From positions 1 through 30,219 of the IMG/VR virus record IMGVR_UViG_3300034095_001394: a stretch of 30,219 nt of DNA; one strand, 5' to 3'. The notes beneath the pieces are model-generated. The model was not told the DNA's origin, ran no database searches, and was given only the letters and a program-made list of their open reading frames with translations. The position numbers and the translations under genes are program-made. The DNA comes from a virus. Positions 1 through 24,838 of the stretch are shown here, piece after piece (positions within the stretch are counted from its first letter, which is position 1; every line of letters starts with the position of its first letter).

Positions 1-1108
1 CGTCGGTCTTGTCTTTTTTGTTGACTTTCGACCAATCTTCATCTACCAGGCCATATTTAGAGGCAAGCTCTTCTTTTCTTTTTGGATTACCGAACTTAAA
101 ATGCAAGTGATTATCTTCGTAGTATGACTCCATGAACTCATATCCGGTAATAGATAGGATCCTAGTTAATTGAGGAAGGAGTTCAGTCTCGTTTAGTTCA
201 TTTTCTGGAAGGATAAATATGACCTTCCATATGTGAAGCATGAGAGGATCTCTCATCAAATCTTTGGTACAGTCAAGAACTGTTGACATTATCGGAGCCG
301 CATGGCTTGCGTAGCTTGTCTCGTCGACAAAAAGATTGATCTCGGACACGCCTCGCTGCCAGCTGGATTGGACAAAAATTTCCACGGGTTTACGATCTGG
401 TGTCCTGAAAGTATAGGTACGACCCTTATCTAATTTTTTTCTCCATCGCAGAGGAGGACTGTCAGTCGTCTCACTCACTTTCACGCAATTGTCTTTGCCG
501 TTAGACGTACCTGCATAGCGATACCCTTTCCAGCAAGCCTTGCCGTCAACACCTTTTATTTTACCAGATGACTCTGACATGAATTCTTCTGCTCTCATTT
601 CTTTATTCCTCTGGTTTTCTTCGAACTTTTCTTTCTTTTCCTTGTTGATGAACACAAAGTTCACAAGACCATTTGCGAAGTATGTCTCTGTGAACTCAAA
701 TCCAGCACTAGGTAAAGCCTTGGCAAATCGCTGGTAAAGTTTGACACGGCTGGGTTCATTATCAGCTGATGCAAACTCGATCTTCCATACGTTTTGCATA
801 ATAGCATCTTTTAGCGCATCTTTCACGCAATCAATCACGGTAGAGAATATAGGAATAGCTTCGCCCGCGTTTGATATCCCACTATCGTAGTCGATCTCGA
901 AAACTATGGAAGACACGCCACGAGTTCGATTAACATCGACTTCCACATTCCCATGTTTGTCATCCGGTGTATCAAACATATATAAAAGACCAAAATAAAC
1001 CCGTCGTTTTTTCCATGACAACGGCTTGTCGAACGTCTCGCTTACTGCATGTACATCGACACCTTTTACTTTGCCAGATGACTCTGATATGAAATCACTC
1101 GCCCTCAT
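1..1108 (-). CDS. Putative internal head protein with two tandem modules (3' end beyond window)
   Basis: The frame is open from the ATG at 1108 to the left edge (369 codons, no stop), so the C-terminus is missing. It contains two homologous modules of about 170-200 residues: residues 1-170 begin MRASDFISES and residues 171 onward begin MRAEEFMSES. Both starts resemble the capsid-targeting peptides of T4 internal proteins, where the prohead protease cuts after (L/I)xE. Module 2 carries a GVDGKACWKGYRY...NGKDNC segment, a Cys/Trp motif I recall from phage virion proteins; module 1 lacks it through an in-frame deletion. Both modules share stretches of the types RGVSxI, PIxSTVxDC and GxEFxEx. The start overlaps the stop of the preceding gene by ATGA. 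Capsid location is inferred; the molecular function is unknown. Confidence 0.8.
   Translation of the reverse strand, partial: MRASDFISESSGKVKGVDVHAVSETFDKPLSWKKRRVYFGLLYMFDTPDDKHGNVEVDVNRTRGVSSIVFEIDYDSGISNAGEAIPIFSTVIDCVKDALKDAIMQNVWKIEFASADNEPSRVKLYQRFAKALPSAGFEFTETYFANGLVNFVFINKEKKEKFEENQRNKEMRAEEFMSESSGKIKGVDGKACWKGYRYAGTSNGKDNCVKVSETTDSPPLRWRKKLDKGRTYTFRTPDRKPVEIFVQSSWQRGVSEINLFVDETSYASHAAPIMSTVLDCTKDLMRDPLMLHIWKVIFILPENELNETELLPQLTRILSITGYEFMESYYEDNHLHFKFGNPKRKEELASKYGLVDEDWSKVNKKDKTD
596..612 (-). promoter_or_regulatory. Internal ribosome binding site and ATG within the two-module protein
   Basis: On the minus strand AGAGG (608-612) lies ahead of an in-frame ATG at 598 that starts the second module, MRAEEFMSES. 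This arrangement would let ribosomes make module 2 alone as well as the fused product. That it is used is an inference from the motif and from its exact match to the module boundary. Confidence 0.45.
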
Positions 1109-1320
1109 TTTACTTCCTTAGTTGAACCAATTTCCCAGTCTGCCACACCGTACATTGCTCGCATGAGTTGTCTTGCTCTGACCATATCAGGCGCAGTGAC
1201 AGTGACGTCAATATACCCGACATAGTTTGGTTGCTTGATTTTAACTGGAGCAGTCCATAACTTTGACTTCGGAGTAAGTTGACTTACTGTTACTTCTGTG
1301 ATAAATTCTGATGCTTTCAT
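1105..1320 (-). CDS. Small protein with capsid-targeting N-terminus
   Basis: A 71-residue protein beginning MKASEFITEV. The I7-T8-E9 tripeptide falls at the same position as the cleavage-type motif in its neighbours and fits the T4-type prohead protease consensus (L/I)xE, so the mature product would start at V10. The remaining 60 residues contain YIDVTVTAPDMVRARQLM, a strand-helix pattern (beta strand followed by an Ala/Arg-rich helix) like the C-terminal 45 residues of the two amidoligase-like proteins upstream. Its Shine-Dalgarno (AGGA) lies in the end of the preceding gene, and its stop overlaps the next start by ATGA. I read it as a head-packaged accessory protein. The catalytic role, if any, is unknown. 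Confidence 0.75.
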   Translation of the reverse strand: MKASEFITEVTVSQLTPKSKLWTAPVKIKQPNYVGYIDVTVTAPDMVRARQLMRAMYGVADWEIGSTKEVK

Positions 1321-1325
1321 GATTA

Positions 1326-2939
1326 TTATCCTGCTGGTCTTTGACTTATGACTCTTAGCTGATCAACAGGCACGTTTATCGTATAAGATGCTTTGGATAA
1401 AGCGTCCTCAGGGGATCGAGCTACGACAGGGAATGTTTTACCGGTGGATAGATTTTCTAGGGTATACAAAATTGAATTTTCAGATGGTTCTTCCGGCTTT
1501 CTCTCACCTTGAATTTTACGAACGAATGACTTCAATTCTCCCTGTGATAACTCACCGGAAGCATACCGAGAAAATAAGTTGACTGTATCCGGTGTACCGC
1601 TGGTTGGAGCCAATAGCTTATATAACTTCTTGTTGTATTCGTTTTTGTAGGCGTTGTCGTCACATGCGATACTTAGTGCCATTGCCAAACGAAGTGCTGT
1701 CGATGCTAATTCCTCAGGCGATTTTGACAAATAATCTCCGCCAGGCCCTCTGAACTCAACCCATCCCTCTCTTGTGTTAATGCTAGTGTACTTGTCCGTG
1801 GAACCACTATGAATGATCTTACTGGCAGCTGCGTTCATTCCTTTCTTCATAGCATTCAGTAACTGAAGGGTATTGTTATCCGTGATTCCAGCCTCAATCT
1901 TGGCAGTAGCAGACCTACAGTATCGATTGCCTACTCGATCGAACTGTTGAAGTACATGTTTATCGCCCATGAATAACGCCAACTTTATGTAGTCAAGTCG
2001 CTCAACGGAAAAGTTAGGGACGCTGATATTCATGTGAAGACCTGTGCTGTCGTTGGTATAACAACCTCCTTTATTAGCCCAAGACCATAATTTGTTCATC
2101 GAGTCAAGTGTTTTCGCAATCGGTTCAGCTGGACTAACTATTTCTACTCCCGAATCTCTATCTGAATGGGGATCAATACTTGAATCTGTCTCGATTACCC
2201 AAGCACCCTTCTCTCTTTTGCCGCCATGATAACTACCCGAAGTGTTGACTTTAGCACCGACTACTTGACTGACCTCAACTCCTAAATCGTCAAGGTTATC
2301 ATCTTCAAGTTCTCCAGGTTCATAATATGGCCATTCTAGATCAAATTCCTCAAAGGCCTCCAGGGCAGTTCTCACACCTTCGGATATAAGCCAATCTCTT
2401 TCACTCAATCTCTTTATATGCTCAGCTTCAGCCTCTTCATAAGCCTCATCCCATTCAGCAGACCCCGAGGCATACATTTCGCTTATTGTATCGTTTACTA
2501 TATCATATGCCAACGATTCGACAGCATCTTCATCGGCGTCATCGCCTAGCTCCTTTCTGGCTTTTTCCATAGCAGGTCCAAAATCAAAATCTCCCAGCAA
2601 ATTTTCTCTGGCGTCATCAACGACTAACTCGTTATCAATATTTTCATATACCCAATCCTGATATCTGGCATTCAAATCACTTCGAACTCTAGCTGGATAA
2701 TTCGCCTCACTGAAAAAATCCACTATTTCGTTGATATCCGATACATAAGTGTCGCGTGAAAAATCCGGAACATCCTCGCCATAGCCTAAGAGAACCAAAT
2801 CAGCAACAACCATCTCGAACTCGATGCCCATGAGCATACCCTGAGCAGCAGGGCTTGAGGCCCATTGACGTAATGCGCCAGGGCTCATCTTGACTTCATC
2901 AAGCTCTTGACTTTCTCTAATAAATTCTCTGAATCTCAC
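1326..2939 (-). CDS. Amidoligase-like protein with capsid-targeting N-terminus (copy 1)
   Basis: A 537-residue protein starting at GTG with Shine-Dalgarno GAGG. MRFREFIRES gives I7-R8-E9, a prohead-protease-type site. GIEFE at 38-42, VIETDSSI at 248-255, GVEIVSP at 264-270 and TGLHMN at 299-304 follow the order of motifs in the putative amidoligase (COOH-NH2 ligase, glutamine-synthetase/GCS fold) superfamily, which forms amide bonds using ATP. Residues 46-215 are acidic and diverge from the second copy, whereas residues 225-470 are nearly the same in both. The C-terminal 45 residues look like a separate small domain. It shares a late operon with its neighbours. Substrate is unknown; modification of host peptides or cell wall after ejection is speculation. 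Confidence 0.75.
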   Translation of the reverse strand: MRFREFIRESQELDEVKMSPGALRQWASSPAAQGMLMGIEFEMVVADLVLLGYGEDVPDFSRDTYVSDINEIVDFFSEANYPARVRSDLNARYQDWVYENIDNELVVDDARENLLGDFDFGPAMEKARKELGDDADEDAVESLAYDIVNDTISEMYASGSAEWDEAYEEAEAEHIKRLSERDWLISEGVRTALEAFEEFDLEWPYYEPGELEDDNLDDLGVEVSQVVGAKVNTSGSYHGGKREKGAWVIETDSSIDPHSDRDSGVEIVSPAEPIAKTLDSMNKLWSWANKGGCYTNDSTGLHMNISVPNFSVERLDYIKLALFMGDKHVLQQFDRVGNRYCRSATAKIEAGITDNNTLQLLNAMKKGMNAAASKIIHSGSTDKYTSINTREGWVEFRGPGGDYLSKSPEELASTALRLAMALSIACDDNAYKNEYNKKLYKLLAPTSGTPDTVNLFSRYASGELSQGELKSFVRKIQGERKPEEPSENSILYTLENLSTGKTFPVVARSPEDALSKASYTINVPVDQLRVISQRPAG

Positions 2940-2949
2940 GTTATTTCCT
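2878..2949 (-). repeat. 72-base exact direct repeat, copy 1
   Basis: This stretch covers the translation start region of amidoligase copy 1, including AGGAAATAAC before the GTG, and is identical to 4472-4543. Exact identity at DNA level, while the following 500 bases have diverged, suggests recent duplication or gene conversion of the start and targeting region. Confidence 0.9.
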
Positions 2950-2952
2950 CTT

Positions 2953-5900
2953 TTATTTCACTATGGATAAATTATCGCCTGATAATTTAAATGTCCTAGC
3001 AGCTCTCAGTAATGCCTCGCGCGGAGTTCTACCAGGAACTCGATATACATAGCCAGTTTCTGAATCCATCACTTTATAAATAGTTGCGCCACTCGCGGTA
3101 ACTTCCGGTTTTCTCTCATTTTGAATTTGACTAACCAGTTTCTTTAACTCTGGTTGTGTTAGCTCACCGGAAGCATACCGAGCAAATAAATTGACGGTAT
3201 CGGGTGAGCCGCTTTTTGGGGCTAACAGTTTGTATAACTTCTTGTTGTATTCGTTTTTGTAGGCGTTCTCGTCGCATGCAATACTTAGTGCCATTGCTAA
3301 TCGAAGTGCAGTTGATGCCAGCTCTTCTGGCGATTTTGACAGGTAATTTCCACCTGGACCTCTGAACTCAACCCATCCATCTCTTGTGTTAATGCTAGTG
3401 TACTTGTCCGTGTGACCACCGTGAATGATCTTACTAGCGGCTGCATTCATTCCTTTCTTCATAGCATTCAGTAACTGAAAGGTATTGAAATCATTAATTC
3501 CTGACTTAATTCTCTTCGAGGCAGATCTGCAGTATTCGTTGCCAACTCGATCGAACTGCTGGAGTACATAATCATCGCCCATGAACAACGCCAACTTTAC
3601 ATAGTCGAGATTTTCTCTTGAAAAATTTGGAACACTTATATTCATGTGAAGACCGGTGCTGTCGTTGGTGTAACAACCTCCTTCATTAGCCCAAGCCCAT
3701 AATTTGTTCATCGAGTCAAGTGTTTTCGCAATAGGTTCAGCAGGGCTAACTATTTCTACTCCTGAGTCTTCATCTGAATGGGGAAGAATACTTGAATCTG
3801 TCTCGATTACCCAAGCGCCCTTTTGTCTTTTGCCGCCATGGTAGTTCGCCGAAGTGTTGACTTTAGCACCGACTACTTGACTGACATCATCTCCTAAATT
3901 CTCTAATGCACTACCTGTATCCTTGTAGTGCGGCCACTCTAAATTAAATTTTCGAGCTGCTTTTAGCGTCGTGTCCGCACCTATAGAAGTAAGCCAATCT
4001 TTTTCACTGAATGAATTCGAGTATCTAGCTTCGGCCTCCTCGAAAGCCTCATTCCACTCATCGGAATCAAACTGCTTCAGGTCGCTTATGGTATCGTAGA
4101 CTATATCATCTGCCAACGCTTTGACGTCATCCTCATCTGCATCGTCGCCTAGCTCCTTTCTGGCTTTTTCCATAGCAGGTCCAAAATCAAATTTCTCCAC
4201 CATTATTTCTCTGGCATAGTCCTCAAGATTATAATATATCCATTCAAGGTACTTAATTTGTAATCTATCTAGCGTGTCAGGTGGATTATTCTCCCCACTG
4301 AAAAAATCACCCAATTGTTCGATAGACGACACATCTCTGTCGTATGAAAAATCCGGAATAGTGCCGCCATTATCATCTGGATCTATGATAAAATTAGGAA
4401 CAACCATCTCGAACTCGATGCCCATGAGCATACCTTGTGCTGCCGGACTCGATGCCCATTGACGTAAGGCACCAGGGCTCATCTTGACTTCATCAAGCTC
4501 TTGACTTTCTCTAATAAATTCTCTGAATCTCACGTTATTTCCTTCCTTTATAAATTCAACCGGTGCTATTTCACCAGTTTTCTTGAAGTGCAAAAATCTT
4601 TCTCTCATTTCCTCGAATATGCCATTCGTCTTTGCCACTTGAGGTCGGCCCTGACTGTCTGTCTTGAGTGCGAGAGCGTTCGCAGCTTTGCCCAAAGCAC
4701 CAGGCTGAACGTCCTTTGTGAGCGCCATGCTATAGCGAGGGTCCTTTGCTTGAGCTTTCGTTGGTATATACCCAGACGCGGATTCGCCCACAGTCTGAGG
4801 TTCAAAATATTCTGGGTGCATCTTGCCGTATTTACGCATCAGCACACCTGCCTTTGCGTTTGCTTCATTTTCCCATGGACTTCCATCCTCGCCAGCACCA
4901 GGCGGCATATCCCTTATTTCTGACTGACGAGCGTGAACTAGCTCGTGTCCGACTGTCCTGAGAATATCCATTATATGACGATCGACCAGGTTGACAAATA
5001 GCTTTTGACTTGCAGGATCATAGTAGCCGAATGTCTTCTTGTTGACCGACCATTCAGGGTCCCGCTTGAAAACTACTTTGGGTGGATTGTCTATTTTAAG
5101 TTTGTCAACACAAAATTCAATGAAATCCTGAACCACCTCTTCTCGACCTTTGGGTTCAGTCTCGTTCAGGAACATACACGTCGTTGGGTTTACACCGTCC
5201 CATGTAGAGCCAGCATCCTCTCCAAAACCATATTTCACCGGCTTGCGAAGTTTTTCGCGCTCGGCCAGGCTGAGTTCTTCGTCTTTGGCTTTGTTCCTAG
5301 CATCACTCAATTTACCAATGACACCTTGACTTCTGAGCATTTTGAACGCCAGATTTTCCGAACTGAACTCGCCATGCTCATCTAGGCCAGCCTGCCTCAT
5401 TTTCTTTAGCCTAGACATCACCTCTGCCATTTCATCGTAGTTACCAGATGCAATAGCGTCCTCTATCCTTTGCTGCATGTCATCATACTTGCTGCGCGTG
5501 TTGCCATCATTGATATCTGCCTTCTTGCGCTTAGGTACGTCGATCCATTCATCGTTCAGCACTGAGTATATACCTTGGCTTACATGAGGTTGATCGGCAT
5601 TTTGGACGTAGAGTTCGACTGGATATTTACCGATGGTGATGTTGTGCTGGTTGTTGTACTGGTACTTCTTGGCGTCGAAAAGCTCACGATAGACATCGTC
5701 ATTCTGTGGAAAGTCAACAACTAAATGCAGGTCAATATCGGAGTGAGGAGTGTAAGTGTAGGCAGCGTTGGAACCACTAATCGTGATATCTTTGAGATCG
5801 ATGTCACTGATGCCTAGAAATTGCTTGAAATCATCCGCGATTTCAAGTAGTCTGTTACGAACGTCTGGTCGAAGTTGTTCGTCTGAAGTCCACAAACGAG

Positions 5901-5967
5901 GATTCAGCTCGGTATTGAACTTCACGGCGTCAGCAAGGTCGTAGGTTTCTAGTTCATTAATGTTCAT
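2953..5967 (-). CDS. Nucleotidyltransferase-HExxH metallopeptidase-amidoligase fusion protein
   Basis: A 1004-residue protein with three parts. Residues 60-86 carry GSNAAYTYTPHSDIDLHLVV, the GS...DxD signature of the polymerase-beta nucleotidyltransferase fold. Residues 335-375 carry HELVH (341-345) followed by ENEANAKAG, an HExxH plus downstream Glu zinc-peptidase arrangement. From 479 to the end it is a second copy of the amidoligase-like protein (GIEFE, ETDSSI, GVEIVSP, TGLHMN all present). The junction contains two IxE sites, EFIKE (471-475) and EFIRE (483-487), where a prohead protease could separate the parts. The ATG lies exactly 5 bases after a GATAAATA late-promoter box and has no Shine-Dalgarno. 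A nucleotidyltransferase plus HExxH arrangement is what I recall from proteins of T4-like phages; the fusion to amidoligase is unusual to me. Confidence 0.8.
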   Translation of the reverse strand: MNINELETYDLADAVKFNTELNPRLWTSDEQLRPDVRNRLLEIADDFKQFLGISDIDLKDITISGSNAAYTYTPHSDIDLHLVVDFPQNDDVYRELFDAKKYQYNNQHNITIGKYPVELYVQNADQPHVSQGIYSVLNDEWIDVPKRKKADINDGNTRSKYDDMQQRIEDAIASGNYDEMAEVMSRLKKMRQAGLDEHGEFSSENLAFKMLRSQGVIGKLSDARNKAKDEELSLAEREKLRKPVKYGFGEDAGSTWDGVNPTTCMFLNETEPKGREEVVQDFIEFCVDKLKIDNPPKVVFKRDPEWSVNKKTFGYYDPASQKLFVNLVDRHIMDILRTVGHELVHARQSEIRDMPPGAGEDGSPWENEANAKAGVLMRKYGKMHPEYFEPQTVGESASGYIPTKAQAKDPRYSMALTKDVQPGALGKAANALALKTDSQGRPQVAKTNGIFEEMRERFLHFKKTGEIAPVEFIKEGNNVRFREFIRESQELDEVKMSPGALRQWASSPAAQGMLMGIEFEMVVPNFIIDPDDNGGTIPDFSYDRDVSSIEQLGDFFSGENNPPDTLDRLQIKYLEWIYYNLEDYAREIMVEKFDFGPAMEKARKELGDDADEDDVKALADDIVYDTISDLKQFDSDEWNEAFEEAEARYSNSFSEKDWLTSIGADTTLKAARKFNLEWPHYKDTGSALENLGDDVSQVVGAKVNTSANYHGGKRQKGAWVIETDSSILPHSDEDSGVEIVSPAEPIAKTLDSMNKLWAWANEGGCYTNDSTGLHMNISVPNFSRENLDYVKLALFMGDDYVLQQFDRVGNEYCRSASKRIKSGINDFNTFQLLNAMKKGMNAAASKIIHGGHTDKYTSINTRDGWVEFRGPGGNYLSKSPEELASTALRLAMALSIACDENAYKNEYNKKLYKLLAPKSGSPDTVNLFARYASGELTQPELKKLVSQIQNERKPEVTASGATIYKVMDSETGYVYRVPGRTPREALLRAARTFKLSGDNLSIVK
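4472..4543 (-). repeat. 72-base exact direct repeat, copy 2
   Basis: Identical to 2878-2949 and lying inside the 1004-residue fusion gene at the point where the amidoligase-like copy begins. It carries the old start region of that copy. Confidence 0.9.
4531..4548 (-). promoter_or_regulatory. Internal ribosome binding site and GTG inside the fusion gene
   Basis: AAGGAAGG (4541-4548) precedes GTG (4533) by a normal spacing, in frame with the 1004-residue protein. Initiation here would give a free 526-residue amidoligase-like protein beginning MRFREFIRES, equivalent to copy 1. The site is the same as the one used by copy 1 but with a stronger Shine-Dalgarno. Use in vivo is inferred. Confidence 0.55.
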
Positions 5968-5972
5968 GCTTG

Positions 5973-5980
5973 TATTTATC
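5973..5980 (-). promoter_or_regulatory. T4-like late promoter box GATAAATA
   Basis: GATAAATAC on the minus strand, then 4 more bases and the ATG at 5967. By the T4 late-promoter geometry (octamer at -13 to -6) the transcript would begin at the A of AUG. It drives the head-protein cassette. Confidence 0.7.
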
Positions 5981-15268: not shown

Positions 15269-15296
15269 AGTATAGCAGGACTTTGTTCGATGTCAA
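15269..15296 (-). promoter_or_regulatory. Sigma70 promoter
   Basis: TTGACA (15291-15296), 16-base spacer, TATACT (15269-15274). It decides the start of the 77-residue gene and begins within the last codons of the methyltransferase-like gene upstream. Confidence 0.75.
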
Positions 15297-16111
15297 TAGA
15301 AATCATCAATGAGAGAGTGAAGCAAAGCCTTCTCCTCGTCCGAGAAACCATAGAAATCCATTATAGAATCATCATCCCAGGCTCGGTCCAATGGAGGCAG
15401 TGGCACGTTTCGTAGATATCGACGAGTACAGAGATCGAATGATACTTTGTTGATGCCCAGCCCGAACCTAGCGACTTTGGTTTTTAGGTACGATTTGAGG
15501 TTGACAACTTCGTCATCATTTGCTAGATTGTAACATCCTCGCTCATTGGCGACTTTTTCAGAGTGTATATCACTCCCATGAACGAAAAACACCCAGTAGT
15601 CAGTAGATACGAGAGACAATACGTTGTCTCTCGCGTTATTGACCATACTCGGCTGCCCTAGGTAGGAGCCACCCTTGTATGGGCCAAATATCTTGACAAT
15701 CGAACTCTGCTGTGCTATGCTCTTGACTTTTTCTACCAGAGCGAATATTTCAGACCTTGGCTCCCATACTCCTGTGGGCATATCCTCGTAAGTAGCAACT
15801 TGGTATCGATTGCCGTTAGGATATACCACCTCAAATGGCCCATTGTTATACTTCACCACCTCGGTGATAACAAGTGGAGAGCCAAAAGACGCACCAAAAA
15901 ACCTATGTCCATTAATATAGGTGAGCCTCTTGGTTCTACGTCGCAACTGATCAATGATGGTCGATTCCTCGGCACGATTTGAACGTCGCATGGTCCATCC
16001 TCCTGGATGAATGAAGCTGACAATGTCAGCCATGTCAACACATTTGGATAGGATTCTCAGATGGAGATTTTTTATATATGGCGGGTTGCCCACTATGATA
16101 TCAAATCGCAT
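15293..16111 (-). CDS. N6-adenine methyltransferase-like protein starting at motif IV (third of three)
   Basis: A 272-residue protein beginning MRFDIIVGNPPYIKN. FDIIVGNPPY is motif IV, the catalytic NPPY of N6-adenine DNA methyltransferases of the Eco57I/type I/IIG kind. Downstream come IVSFIHPGGW and a GSPLVITEV region that resemble the motif VI-VIII part and then about 150 residues that could recognise DNA. The AdoMet-binding motif I, which precedes motif IV in these families, is absent: the protein begins 7 residues before the motif. Two similar genes lie just upstream, so either another subunit supplies AdoMet binding, or these are non-catalytic relatives. It follows the stop of the preceding gene by 2 bases. 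Confidence 0.65.
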   Translation of the reverse strand: MRFDIIVGNPPYIKNLHLRILSKCVDMADIVSFIHPGGWTMRRSNRAEESTIIDQLRRRTKRLTYINGHRFFGASFGSPLVITEVVKYNNGPFEVVYPNGNRYQVATYEDMPTGVWEPRSEIFALVEKVKSIAQQSSIVKIFGPYKGGSYLGQPSMVNNARDNVLSLVSTDYWVFFVHGSDIHSEKVANERGCYNLANDDEVVNLKSYLKTKVARFGLGINKVSFDLCTRRYLRNVPLPPLDRAWDDDSIMDFYGFSDEEKALLHSLIDDFY

Positions 16112-16113
16112 TT

Positions 16114-16653
16114 CTATTTTAGTGATTCTTCGTAAATTCTTATCAAATCTGATTTCGACAGGCTAGGAATTCCAACGGTGTTTTTGGCAAATGCTCTGAA
16201 GGTGCTTTCAAGCGAGATGAGCCTTTCAATGACAGCGTCACTCGTCACCTTTAGGAAGTAATGTTCATGGTAATAATGATCGTAATCTTTGACCATGACT
16301 TTGCCTGCCACTCCCCCAACTCGACAGATGAATAGATTCGACTCTTCCTTTGTGACAAATTCAAAGTCGGAATGGTTGCGCCTGGACTTAGTGATAAGAC
16401 GTAACTCTTCCTTTACTATCCAACGTTGGTTGCACGTCGTTATCTTAGGCCCGAAAACGAAATCCTTGTTGTTGGTGTCGGAAACTAAGTGCAGACGTCG
16501 ATCAAGCCGAGCAAGAAACGACTCCTTGCGTACCGTTTTTGGCAGAACCATTCTAATATCCTTACTCAGTGAAACGCATCTATTCAAAAATTTCAATACC
16601 AGATTCGCTTTTCGGCCGTATGGTGGATTGCCCACAATAAAGTCGAATGTCAT
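16114..16653 (-). CDS. N6-adenine methyltransferase-like protein starting at motif IV (second of three)
   Basis: A 179-residue protein beginning MTFDFIVGNPPYGRK, the same motif IV start as its neighbours. IRMVLPKTVRKESFLARLDRRL occupies the place of the (I/V)xPxxxR-type segment after motif IV in this family, and the C-terminus ends in a short helical region. No AdoMet-binding FxGxG motif is present anywhere. At under 180 residues it is too short for a complete methyltransferase. Its start overlaps the stop of the first copy by ATGA, implying coupled translation and possibly a complex. Confidence 0.65.
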   Translation of the reverse strand: MTFDFIVGNPPYGRKANLVLKFLNRCVSLSKDIRMVLPKTVRKESFLARLDRRLHLVSDTNNKDFVFGPKITTCNQRWIVKEELRLITKSRRNHSDFEFVTKEESNLFICRVGGVAGKVMVKDYDHYYHEHYFLKVTSDAVIERLISLESTFRAFAKNTVGIPSLSKSDLIRIYEESLK

Positions 16654-17369
16654 GTATGATATTTGATCAATTTCACTATCCCAGGACTTAGAAATCCACT
16701 ATAACGACAGTGGTGCTTCATTATATCAATACAAGATATCAGCCGATCTTTTACATATTCTGCTGTATCCATATCCGGTGTATATACATACACATAATTT
16801 CTAATATCCTTTGAACCCATTACAGGGTTATTGTCCTCGTCCAATACTTCAATATGAAATGGCCATAGGTATCTGGTAGTCGGTATTGAAACCCGAATTC
16901 CTTTATGGTTCTTGGTATCTACCTCGAACATTGAATTCAGATTGTCATTTAGGCTCAGTTCCTTGAACACTTGGTCGTGACCGCTCAGCGGCATAAATCC
17001 TAAGTTCGTAGGAGAGCCGTCACTGAATCGAAGTCCATCGTCACCAGACTTGTCGACGATCACATATCCAAATGTCGATCTGACCGTAGTGAAATGCTTT
17101 TCTACGTCATTAATATTGGCGTAGGAACTGTAAATGTTGAAAACGTCCCATAATCTAGATAAGCCTTTATACTTGTATTCTCCTTTCAAGTTCGAAGAAG
17201 GGGAAGCCCATGTGGCCGGAGTAATCAAGCAAGCAATTCCTTTTTTCTTGGCAAGCGACAATACTAGCGGCCAAAATTTTGACCACAAATTCATGGATAT
17301 GGCTTTTCTTGACCCATCATCTTTTGTATCTTGAAATGGTGGATTCCCAACGATAACGTCAAATCTCAT
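16650..17369 (-). CDS. N6-adenine methyltransferase-like protein starting at motif IV (first of three)
   Basis: A 239-residue protein beginning MRFDVIVGNPPFQDTKDDGS. NPPF at 9-12 is the catalytic motif IV. LSLAKKKGIACLITPATW is the helix-strand that follows it in Eco57I-type enzymes, where the strand leads to a Pro and a Trp. The rest (SRLWDVFNIYSSY, GIRVSIPTTRYLW) fits a target-recognition or C-terminal part. There is no motif I. A late-type GATAAATA box with TAGGAG Shine-Dalgarno lies directly upstream, so all three genes are probably a late operon. A role in modifying phage DNA, or in disturbing host restriction-modification, is inference. Confidence 0.65.
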   Translation of the reverse strand: MRFDVIVGNPPFQDTKDDGSRKAISMNLWSKFWPLVLSLAKKKGIACLITPATWASPSSNLKGEYKYKGLSRLWDVFNIYSSYANINDVEKHFTTVRSTFGYVIVDKSGDDGLRFSDGSPTNLGFMPLSGHDQVFKELSLNDNLNSMFEVDTKNHKGIRVSIPTTRYLWPFHIEVLDEDNNPVMGSKDIRNYVYVYTPDMDTAEYVKDRLISCIDIMKHHCRYSGFLSPGIVKLIKYHT

Positions 17370-19641: not shown

Positions 19642-19649
19642 TATTTAGC
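19642..19649 (-). promoter_or_regulatory. Variant late promoter box GCTAAATA
   Basis: GCTAAATAT differs at the second base from the usual box and contains the TAA stop of the upstream polymerase-fragment gene. A GAGG Shine-Dalgarno follows before the ATG at 19619. Confidence 0.45.
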
Positions 19650-20157
19650 GCAAGAAATCTCTCACGTCTAAACAATAGTATAAGCTGTCTATTTTATGTA
19701 CGCCTATGAGATATAATATGTAAGAACTCACCGAACTTCCTCTGCCTACTCCCCAGATAATGTTATTCTGTTTCATTGTGACTACCAGGTATACCATATA
19801 CCTCAATAGGTTGAATAGGTTCCGTTCTTGATATAATAATAGTTCCTCGCCGCAACGCTGGAGTTGTTCCTGCGTAGTGCATAAGTCAAGCACAAATTTG
19901 GCGATATCAAGATCTTTGTATTCTTGTGGCATATACCAGTTATCCTGGCACTTAGAATCAAATTCTGGTATGGTAAGATTCGGCTTGTTATATTTTGTAA
20001 ATTTTGGTGGATTTTCGAGTAGATCGGTTATCGAATCGATGTTTACAGTTTGATCGACGAGTGCTTCGTGCATGTCGTCGATATCTTTTCCCTTCATTAT
20101 GTAGTTCATGAGATCGTCCTCGTTGAAGACGATCTGTCCAAACTTGTCTTGAATCAT
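19645..20157 (-). CDS. Orphan fragment homologous to bacterial DNA polymerase III alpha (family C)
   Basis: A 170-residue protein that aligns by eye with one segment of DnaE. MKQNNIIWGVGRGSSVSSYILYLIG (128-152) with IDSLYYCLDVRDFLR after it matches DnaE's VGPGRGSAAGSLVAY...IDPxxYxLLFERFLN, which holds the GS nucleotide-binding residues of the palm. Residues 30-120 match the part before it, where DnaE has NTVEIAERC and a tyrosine-rich run into the palm. The protein stops just where DnaE continues with PDxDxD, the catalytic aspartates, so it cannot polymerise DNA alone. It may be a regulatory or decoy module. It overlaps the next upstream gene by ATGA, arguing for a real stand-alone gene rather than a decayed remnant. 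Confidence 0.7.
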   Translation of the reverse strand: MIQDKFGQIVFNEDDLMNYIMKGKDIDDMHEALVDQTVNIDSITDLLENPPKFTKYNKPNLTIPEFDSKCQDNWYMPQEYKDLDIAKFVLDLCTTQEQLQRCGEELLLYQERNLFNLLRYMVYLVVTMKQNNIIWGVGRGSSVSSYILYLIGVHKIDSLYYCLDVRDFLR

Positions 20158-24298: not shown

Positions 24299-24838
24299 TC
24301 AAAATCTCTCGTTAATTATATTCCAGTCAATAATTTTCCAGATATTATCAATATATTTGTCCTTTTTCCATTGATAATCTGACCAAGCATGTTCCCACCA
24401 GTCAACCAGTAATATTATATCGGTTCTGATGGCATGATTAGGGATAGTTTTGATTTTTCCAGAAGTGCTTAGATATACCCATCCAGAACCCTGAATTTCC
24501 ATTGCAACTGTTTTGAATTCATCTTTGAAGTCCTCGAAGCTCTTGAACTTTGAGTTTATCAAATTCTGAATTTCACCTTTCGGTCTATTTGCACCAGATG
24601 GAGGTTTGTATTGAGCGAACAGCTTATTGTGAAGGTAACTTCCTGCTTTGTTGAACGTAGGATCTCCCTCACCGGCGTTGAATTTTTTGGCGTATCCTTT
24701 AGCAAGATGCTCAAAGTGATAGTTCAGATTGTCTTTGGATAATACAGGAGACAGCGAATCTAAGCTGTAGTTCAGTGGAGTAGTGTATAGCTTATCTGGC
24801 TCGGATGATTGCTCGATTAGGTTTATTATGTCTCGCAT
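24299..24838 (-). CDS. sod: Fe/Mn superoxide dismutase, possibly head-packaged
   Basis: A 179-residue Fe/Mn-type SOD, which converts superoxide to O2 and H2O2. All four metal ligands are present: H41 (NYHFEHLAKGY), H70 (AGSYLHNKLF), D146 and H150 (VDWWEHAW). Tyr49 of the active-site gateway is kept, but the gateway His of bacterial enzymes is Leu. The outer-sphere Gln is replaced by His135 (IPNHAIRT), and the first-half position is Gly66. The first nine residues, MRDIINLIE, precede the enzyme fold and end in L7-I8-E9, a prohead-protease-type site at the same position as in the 1-5967 cassette. ATG lies one base after the IF-1 stop, same operon. Confidence 0.85.
   Translation of the reverse strand: MRDIINLIEQSSEPDKLYTTPLNYSLDSLSPVLSKDNLNYHFEHLAKGYAKKFNAGEGDPTFNKAGSYLHNKLFAQYKPPSGANRPKGEIQNLINSKFKSFEDFKDEFKTVAMEIQGSGWVYLSTSGKIKTIPNHAIRTDIILLVDWWEHAWSDYQWKKDKYIDNIWKIIDWNIINERF

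Follow-up and report, generated by a model that had tools for sequence, protein, structure and literature searches.

The DNA stretch analysed here (the window, 30,219 nucleotides, the IMG/VR virus record IMGVR_UViG_3300034095_001394) carries at one end a cassette of minus-strand genes, several of which begin with a very similar nonapeptide (Table 1). Three genes start with M[RK]xx[DE]FIxE (two with ATG and the stand-alone amidoligase with GTG), so that IxE ends at residue 9 in each of them, and two further copies lie in frame at domain junctions of longer proteins. These five peptides had been named in the original prediction and all of them are present where it had placed them, so that this observation is confirmed. 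A sixth site, VEFIKE, lies just before the internal copy at 4533. Two more features of the window had been overlooked, namely the variant tag MRDIINLIE of a superoxide dismutase (SOD) and the short start MNINE of the 1004-aa protein.

Table 1. Tagged genes and associated features of the window (the arrow marks the putative cleavage position)
Position	Strand	Feature	Supporting data
2..1108	-	two tandem modules with predicted GNAT fold; 3' end of the gene cut by the contig end	AF2 pLDDT 73.7; Foldseek E 3e-5, prob 1.00; VIA Z 9.2, rmsd 3.1 over 118 residues
572..598	-	internal tag MRAEEFMSE↓S before the second GNAT module	SD-like stretch
1082..1108	-	tag MRASDFISE↓S of the first GNAT module (ATG)	residues 1-25 modelled with low confidence
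1105..1320	-	71-aa protein of unknown fold	homologues of 66-69 aa in the same cassette of relatives
1294..1320	-	tag MKASEFITE↓V (ATG)	
1326..2939	-	stand-alone amidoligase, 537 aa, GTG start	Amidoligase_2 PF12224 2.4e-11, 44.4 bits (cut-off 22)
2913..2939	-	tag V/MRFREFIRE↓S	
2953..5967	-	1004-aa fusion of nucleotidyltransferase (about 5266-5928), zincin-like metallopeptidase (HELVHARQ; about 4783-5145) and amidoligase (about 3481-3915 by Pfam); starts MNINE↓L	phrog_36119 3e-43; Amidoligase_2 5e-12, 46.7 bits (cut-off 22); same fusion, 1545 and 1526 aa, in syntenic relatives
4507..4533	-	internal tag copy VRFREFIRE	own GTG; Shine-Dalgarno-like stretch
4543..4557	-	internal tag-like site EFIKE at the metallopeptidase-amidoligase junction	
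5973..5980	-	GATAAATA, late-promoter-like	13 nt before the start of the first gene of the cassette
24299..24838	-	Fe/Mn superoxide dismutase with N-terminal extension	Sod_Fe_C 2.8e-22, 79.1 bits (cut-off 20.9); N-terminal domain 23.1 bits, under its cut-off of 27; metal-ligand positions H41, H70, D146 and H150 conserved
24812..24838	-	variant tag MRDIINLIE↓Q of the SOD (LxE ending at residue 9)	LxE in 19 of 19 orthologues, next residue Ala in 15 of 19

For the N-half of the 1004-aa fusion, PHROGs gives no function for the matching family and NTP_transf_2 matches below its cut-off, while the zincin-like motif was read from the sequence. A search of viral contigs with the nucleotidyltransferase N-half as query confirmed no relatives, and a full-length alignment of the fusion with partial relatives was of poor quality and was not used. 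A sequencing error as the cause of the fusion can be rejected, since the fusion is conserved in two relatives. The tandem module at 1108, which had been described as a small unknown module, has a GNAT acetyltransferase fold according to the AlphaFold2 model and the structural comparisons. However, its homologues carry TGxGxA where GNATs bind the pyrophosphate of acetyl-CoA, whereas the two window copies read SNAGEA and SYASHA and have lost most of the glycines. The presence of a functional acetyl-CoA loop is therefore undecided and catalysis is uncertain. A short two-cysteine module (CWKGYR..GTK.KGG..VNNCV) follows the tag in several otherwise unrelated proteins (window 2-598 and the contigs L056, 18428-19336, and L030, 12312-12989). 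The 71-aa protein showed no significant match to the C-terminal module of the amidoligases and has no assigned function.

The SOD has a 16-residue extension. Among 19 orthologues (window included) LxE is invariant, while the residues before it vary in number and identity, and one orthologue carries the canonical tag MRASDFLTE. Cellular SODs align only after the extension. The structure model of the SOD was too poor to be used (pLDDT 54). In contig L250 the SOD gene overlaps the start codon of an MRANEFITE-tagged gene. However, some orthologous enzymes have no extension, as is the case for the cytidylyltransferase of the window and the SOD of Vibrio 2.275.O.

We next asked whether the tag could be explained by chance or by a composition bias at start codons, since the bare (I/L)xE triplet is common. 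In 18 contigs (17 found through the amidoligase plus the window), the DNA pattern of the tag occurs 22 times, in 13 of the contigs and always in gene orientation, and the reversed control pattern never. In 19 closer relatives the numbers are 27 versus 0. In the ten relatives that were fetched, the strict motif is present at 30 of 963 gene starts but at only 5 of 4481 internal methionines (p=2.4e-18). At this background rate, three tagged starts among the 44 genes of the window have a probability of about 2e-5. It has to be considered that the search that found these contigs used the amidoligase tag among its patterns, but the other tagged genes are independent of it. Chance is rejected by these controls.

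The tag is also not restricted to a few protein families. A DNA-pattern scan of IMG/VR yielded at least 80 loci with at least 99 tagged ORFs, nearly all with only a short open frame upstream. The codons vary at synonymous positions, which shows selection at the level of the peptide and rules out a DNA-level element as the cause of the conservation. After removal of the tag, 157 proteins fall into 36 families without detectable similarity to each other. The cargo named by Pfam comprises ADP-ribosyltransferase exoenzyme, GH19, LysM, Polbeta-type nucleotidyltransferase, GNAT, cytidine deaminase (with the short tag form MFLAE) and SOD. Further proteins are ParB-like by PHROGs or kinase-like by a sub-threshold match only. 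The commonest tagged family is an uncharacterised protein of about 125 aa (YRFGVAIA...; contigs L246, L213, L256, L189 and others), often in two or three adjacent paralogues ending in F.GYKK. In a 206-aa GH19 hydrolase (contig L193, ORF at 2992) the tag MRAVEFIAE is followed directly by a twin-arginine-like signal (IDRRGFLGALGAGAMAAAG), as if removal of the tag would expose an export signal.

As a positive control, the start-anchored motif was applied to T4, where it finds eight genes. Six of them encode head-assembly or internal proteins (IPII, IPIII, gp21, gp22, gp24 and Alt), one is a 54-aa ORF with a classic MKTFKEFIKE start that we have not assigned, and one (td) is a false hit. SPO1, N4 and phiKZ have no S77 protease, and none of their 683 starts matches the strict form. 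However, the motif is weak or absent at the starts of some phages that do encode S77 (none in phiW-14, near background in S-PM2, phiM12 and PA5oct).

The absence of a gp21-type protease from the genome had been named in advance as an outcome that would speak against capsid targeting. The window itself encodes neither this protease nor gp23, but all six relatives of 317 kb or more encode an S77 (gp21-type) protease, which leaves the point undecided for the phage of the window itself. Relatives of the ClpA-like ATPase of the window, at 58-75% identity, lie on contigs of up to 353 kb, so that the window is most likely a fragment of a jumbo phage. The head operons of the large contigs read portal, a 72-aa core protein starting MILNE↓LY or MLLTE↓FW, a gp67-like gene, S77, gp22 and gp23. 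The short tag of the core protein matches the start of the fusion in the window. The maturation site of gp23 in relatives is LxE↓T/N in 58 of 58 sequences screened, and LKE↓N in most of the nearer lineage of the window, whereas G036 reads LLAE↓S. The cleavage specificity at the major capsid protein of the lineage, as seen in relatives only, therefore agrees with that of the tag.

In two relatives the cassette is syntenic with that of the window. It consists, in this order, of a nucleotidyltransferase-amidoligase fusion starting MNINELDSF or MNITELDSY (MNINELETY in the window), runs of tagged genes with overlapping start and stop codons, a homologue of the 71-aa protein and a Dps-like gene. These two nearest homologues of the 71-aa protein begin MKAKEIYATS and MKARDIYPK, a degenerate tag without IxE and its cleavage Glu. 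In the window, seven of 12 GATAAATA sites lie just upstream of genes, against one of 12 for the reverse-complement control, as expected for T4-type late promoters.

The role of the internal tag copies is less evident. In the window FIRE↓SQELDEV starts the amidoligase domain of the fusion, the same junction reads TVAE↓SVEQLDEV and QVAE↓SVDQLDEV in the fusions of the relatives, and stand-alone amidoligases read PLTE↓AILDEV or ALKE↓AEIIDEV. The xE↓S/A position is thus kept in internal and N-terminal settings, and in the relatives' fusions without a start codon, which favours a protease site over a translation start. Likewise, one sequence (G008) keeps VINE↓LRNKL where another (G005) has a stand-alone MRSKEFITE↓LRNRL. 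However, both internal copies in the window possess a start codon and a Shine-Dalgarno-like stretch, and internal EFIxE copies are not present in the fusions of the relatives. It is therefore possible, although in our view less likely than not, that the internal copies are only alternative translation starts of overlapping or fused genes. This alternative does not concern the N-terminal tags.

A further observation concerns the C-terminus of some amidoligases. Among 1007 genes of the amidoligase contigs (window included), the ending [IL]R[RK]LAG occurs only on eight large amidoligases, from eight related contigs, and on the scaffold protein gp22 of G010. Large amidoligases of the contigs L017, L011, L049 and L059 end in the same peptide as gp22 (L044, 2715-3818). 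All 80 gp22 homologues fetched end in [IL][RK]RLAGLK, and the gp22 proteins of the nearer relatives show the form KRLAGL. The amidoligases of the window lack this tail. We read it as a second prohead signal on some amidoligases, which is an inference.

Taken together, the N-terminal peptides are best explained as T4-type capsid-targeting sequences (CTS), and we hold this view with high confidence. In this model, the tagged proteins would bind the prohead scaffold core through the tag late in infection, and the S77/gp21-type protease would then cut after (I/L)xE, releasing mature enzymes that stay in the head with the DNA and most likely enter the next host with it. The tag would work as a modular address label on dozens of unrelated proteins, and the same kind of site at domain junctions would let the protease cut a polyprotein. 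The tags, their position, enrichment and modularity, the protease gene of the relatives and the matching gp23 site can be read directly from the sequences, whereas packaging is strongly inferred, and cleavage, ejection and action in the host are likewise inferences. Presence in virions and actual cleavage have not been shown, ejection and effector function are untested, and no virion proteomics was found for these phages. The original interpretation, that these proteins are packaged in the head and ejected with the DNA as an effector set unlike the internal proteins of T4, is thus supported in part. The cargo is wider than had been assumed, and the contrast to T4 holds for the protein bodies, but ADP-ribosyltransferases, the kind of enzyme T4 Alt is, are also tagged in other contigs.

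Two other readings of the N-terminal tag have to be considered. First, the tag might be a prohead-core signal, but the proteins might act during assembly or inside the head (as scaffold partners, in DNA protection or as antioxidants) and not be delivered as effectors. The SOD and the untagged Dps/ferritin-like genes beside tagged cassettes (contigs L491, 12896-13336; L493, 3949-4389; L042, 3133-3573), which together suggest an oxidative-stress theme, fit the protection of packaged DNA, and the amidoligases ending like gp22 suggest a core role. In contrast, much of the cargo consists of classes used elsewhere as host-modifying effectors (ADP-ribosyltransferase, GNAT, nucleotidyltransferase, deaminase) and most would need substrates not expected in a head. 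We therefore consider this reading unlikely. Second, the peptide might be read by the phage-encoded ClpA or by another sorting system, with its likeness to the T4 CTS being convergence, since the window encodes a ClpA-like ATPase and a short amphipathic N-terminus could serve many readers. This is very unlikely, as it would not explain the LxE identity with the gp23 maturation site, the conservation of xE↓S at internal junctions, the tags on a core protein inside the head operon or the result with T4.

The principle itself is known from T4. The internal proteins IPI-IPIII and Alt carry an N-terminal peptide of about 10 residues of the form MKTYQEFIAE, which ends in (I/L)xE and is processed by gp21. 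The CTS has been described as the only conserved part of a diverse set of internal proteins (PMC3012670), and it suffices to package foreign proteins into heads (PMC5694885). The lineage studied here differs from T4 in the much larger number of families, which are mostly enzymes where recognisable and include SOD, GNAT, amidoligase and GH19, in the freshwater consensus MRAxEFITE and in the tags at junctions of fused proteins. The breadth, the cargo and the likeness to the scaffold tail appear to be new: our literature searches found no paper describing this tag on SOD, amidoligase or GNAT proteins or its use in uncultivated jumbo phages, although only open-licence papers were covered and an earlier description elsewhere is not excluded.

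The polyvalent proteins of phages and conjugative elements (PMC5512222) share injected-effector-like domains (ART, kinase, ParB, zincin, GNAT, nucleotidyltransferase) and a zincin inside multidomain proteins. Here, however, the activities are mostly located on separate, individually tagged proteins. No protein of the window matched a named PolyVal domain over its cut-off, with only a sub-threshold Kinase-PolyVal match in contig L215, and the text of that paper mentions neither amidoligase, superoxide nor capsid targeting. The ejection proteins of phiKZ and SPN3US are also internal head proteins with cleaved propeptides that act as targeting signals. However, these are removed by the S80 prohead protease, several exceed 100 residues and the site is A/SxE (PMC5694885), in comparison to about 9 residues and (I/L)xE with an S77 protease here.

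There are some experimental hints from cultured phages. RaK2 encodes S77, and 54 of its virion proteins were found by mass spectrometry (PMC3622015). The site (I/L)xE↓[AGSTDN] ending at residues 6-13 is present on 6 of 26 RaK2 genes labelled 'virion structural protein' and on 2 of 108 others (p=7e-4). However, this stricter site was chosen after a looser motif had given no significant result (p=0.11), and the labels are those of GenBank. Pseudomonas phage PA5oct, which possesses S77 and a gp22 ending ELRRLAGIK, encodes a related SOD (EST35_0261) whose N-terminus reads MNDSIKKYISIAE↓AASS. Its record carries an ESI-MS/MS note, but unrelated enzymes of that record carry the same note, so that it does not prove a head location.

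If the tag means packaging in the head, a simple sequence rule predicts for many uncultivated phages which unknown proteins travel in the virion, and turns a list of hypothetical proteins into a list of candidate first-minute effectors. It also predicts a capsid-packaged SOD and suggests new ways of loading cargo into large phage heads. A more far-reaching reading, which we put forward only tentatively and regard as slightly less likely than not, is that jumbo T4-like freshwater phages run a general intravirion cargo system, in which a nine-residue address label and a shared protease load dozens of exchangeable enzymes, some as polyproteins cut inside the prohead. Large amidoligases of several related contigs would additionally copy the C-terminal tail of gp22 as a second loading signal, and the SOD would give the virion or the incoming genome its own defence against superoxide.

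Outside the cassette, the window contains three tandem minus-strand ORFs (15293-17369), each starting M.FD.IVGNPP, like tandem or fragmented adenine methyltransferases. A short ORF at 19645-20157 has a GRGSSVSSYILYLIG stretch resembling a piece of DNA polymerase III alpha, and a possibly related piece occurs in contig L002 (13376-13954).
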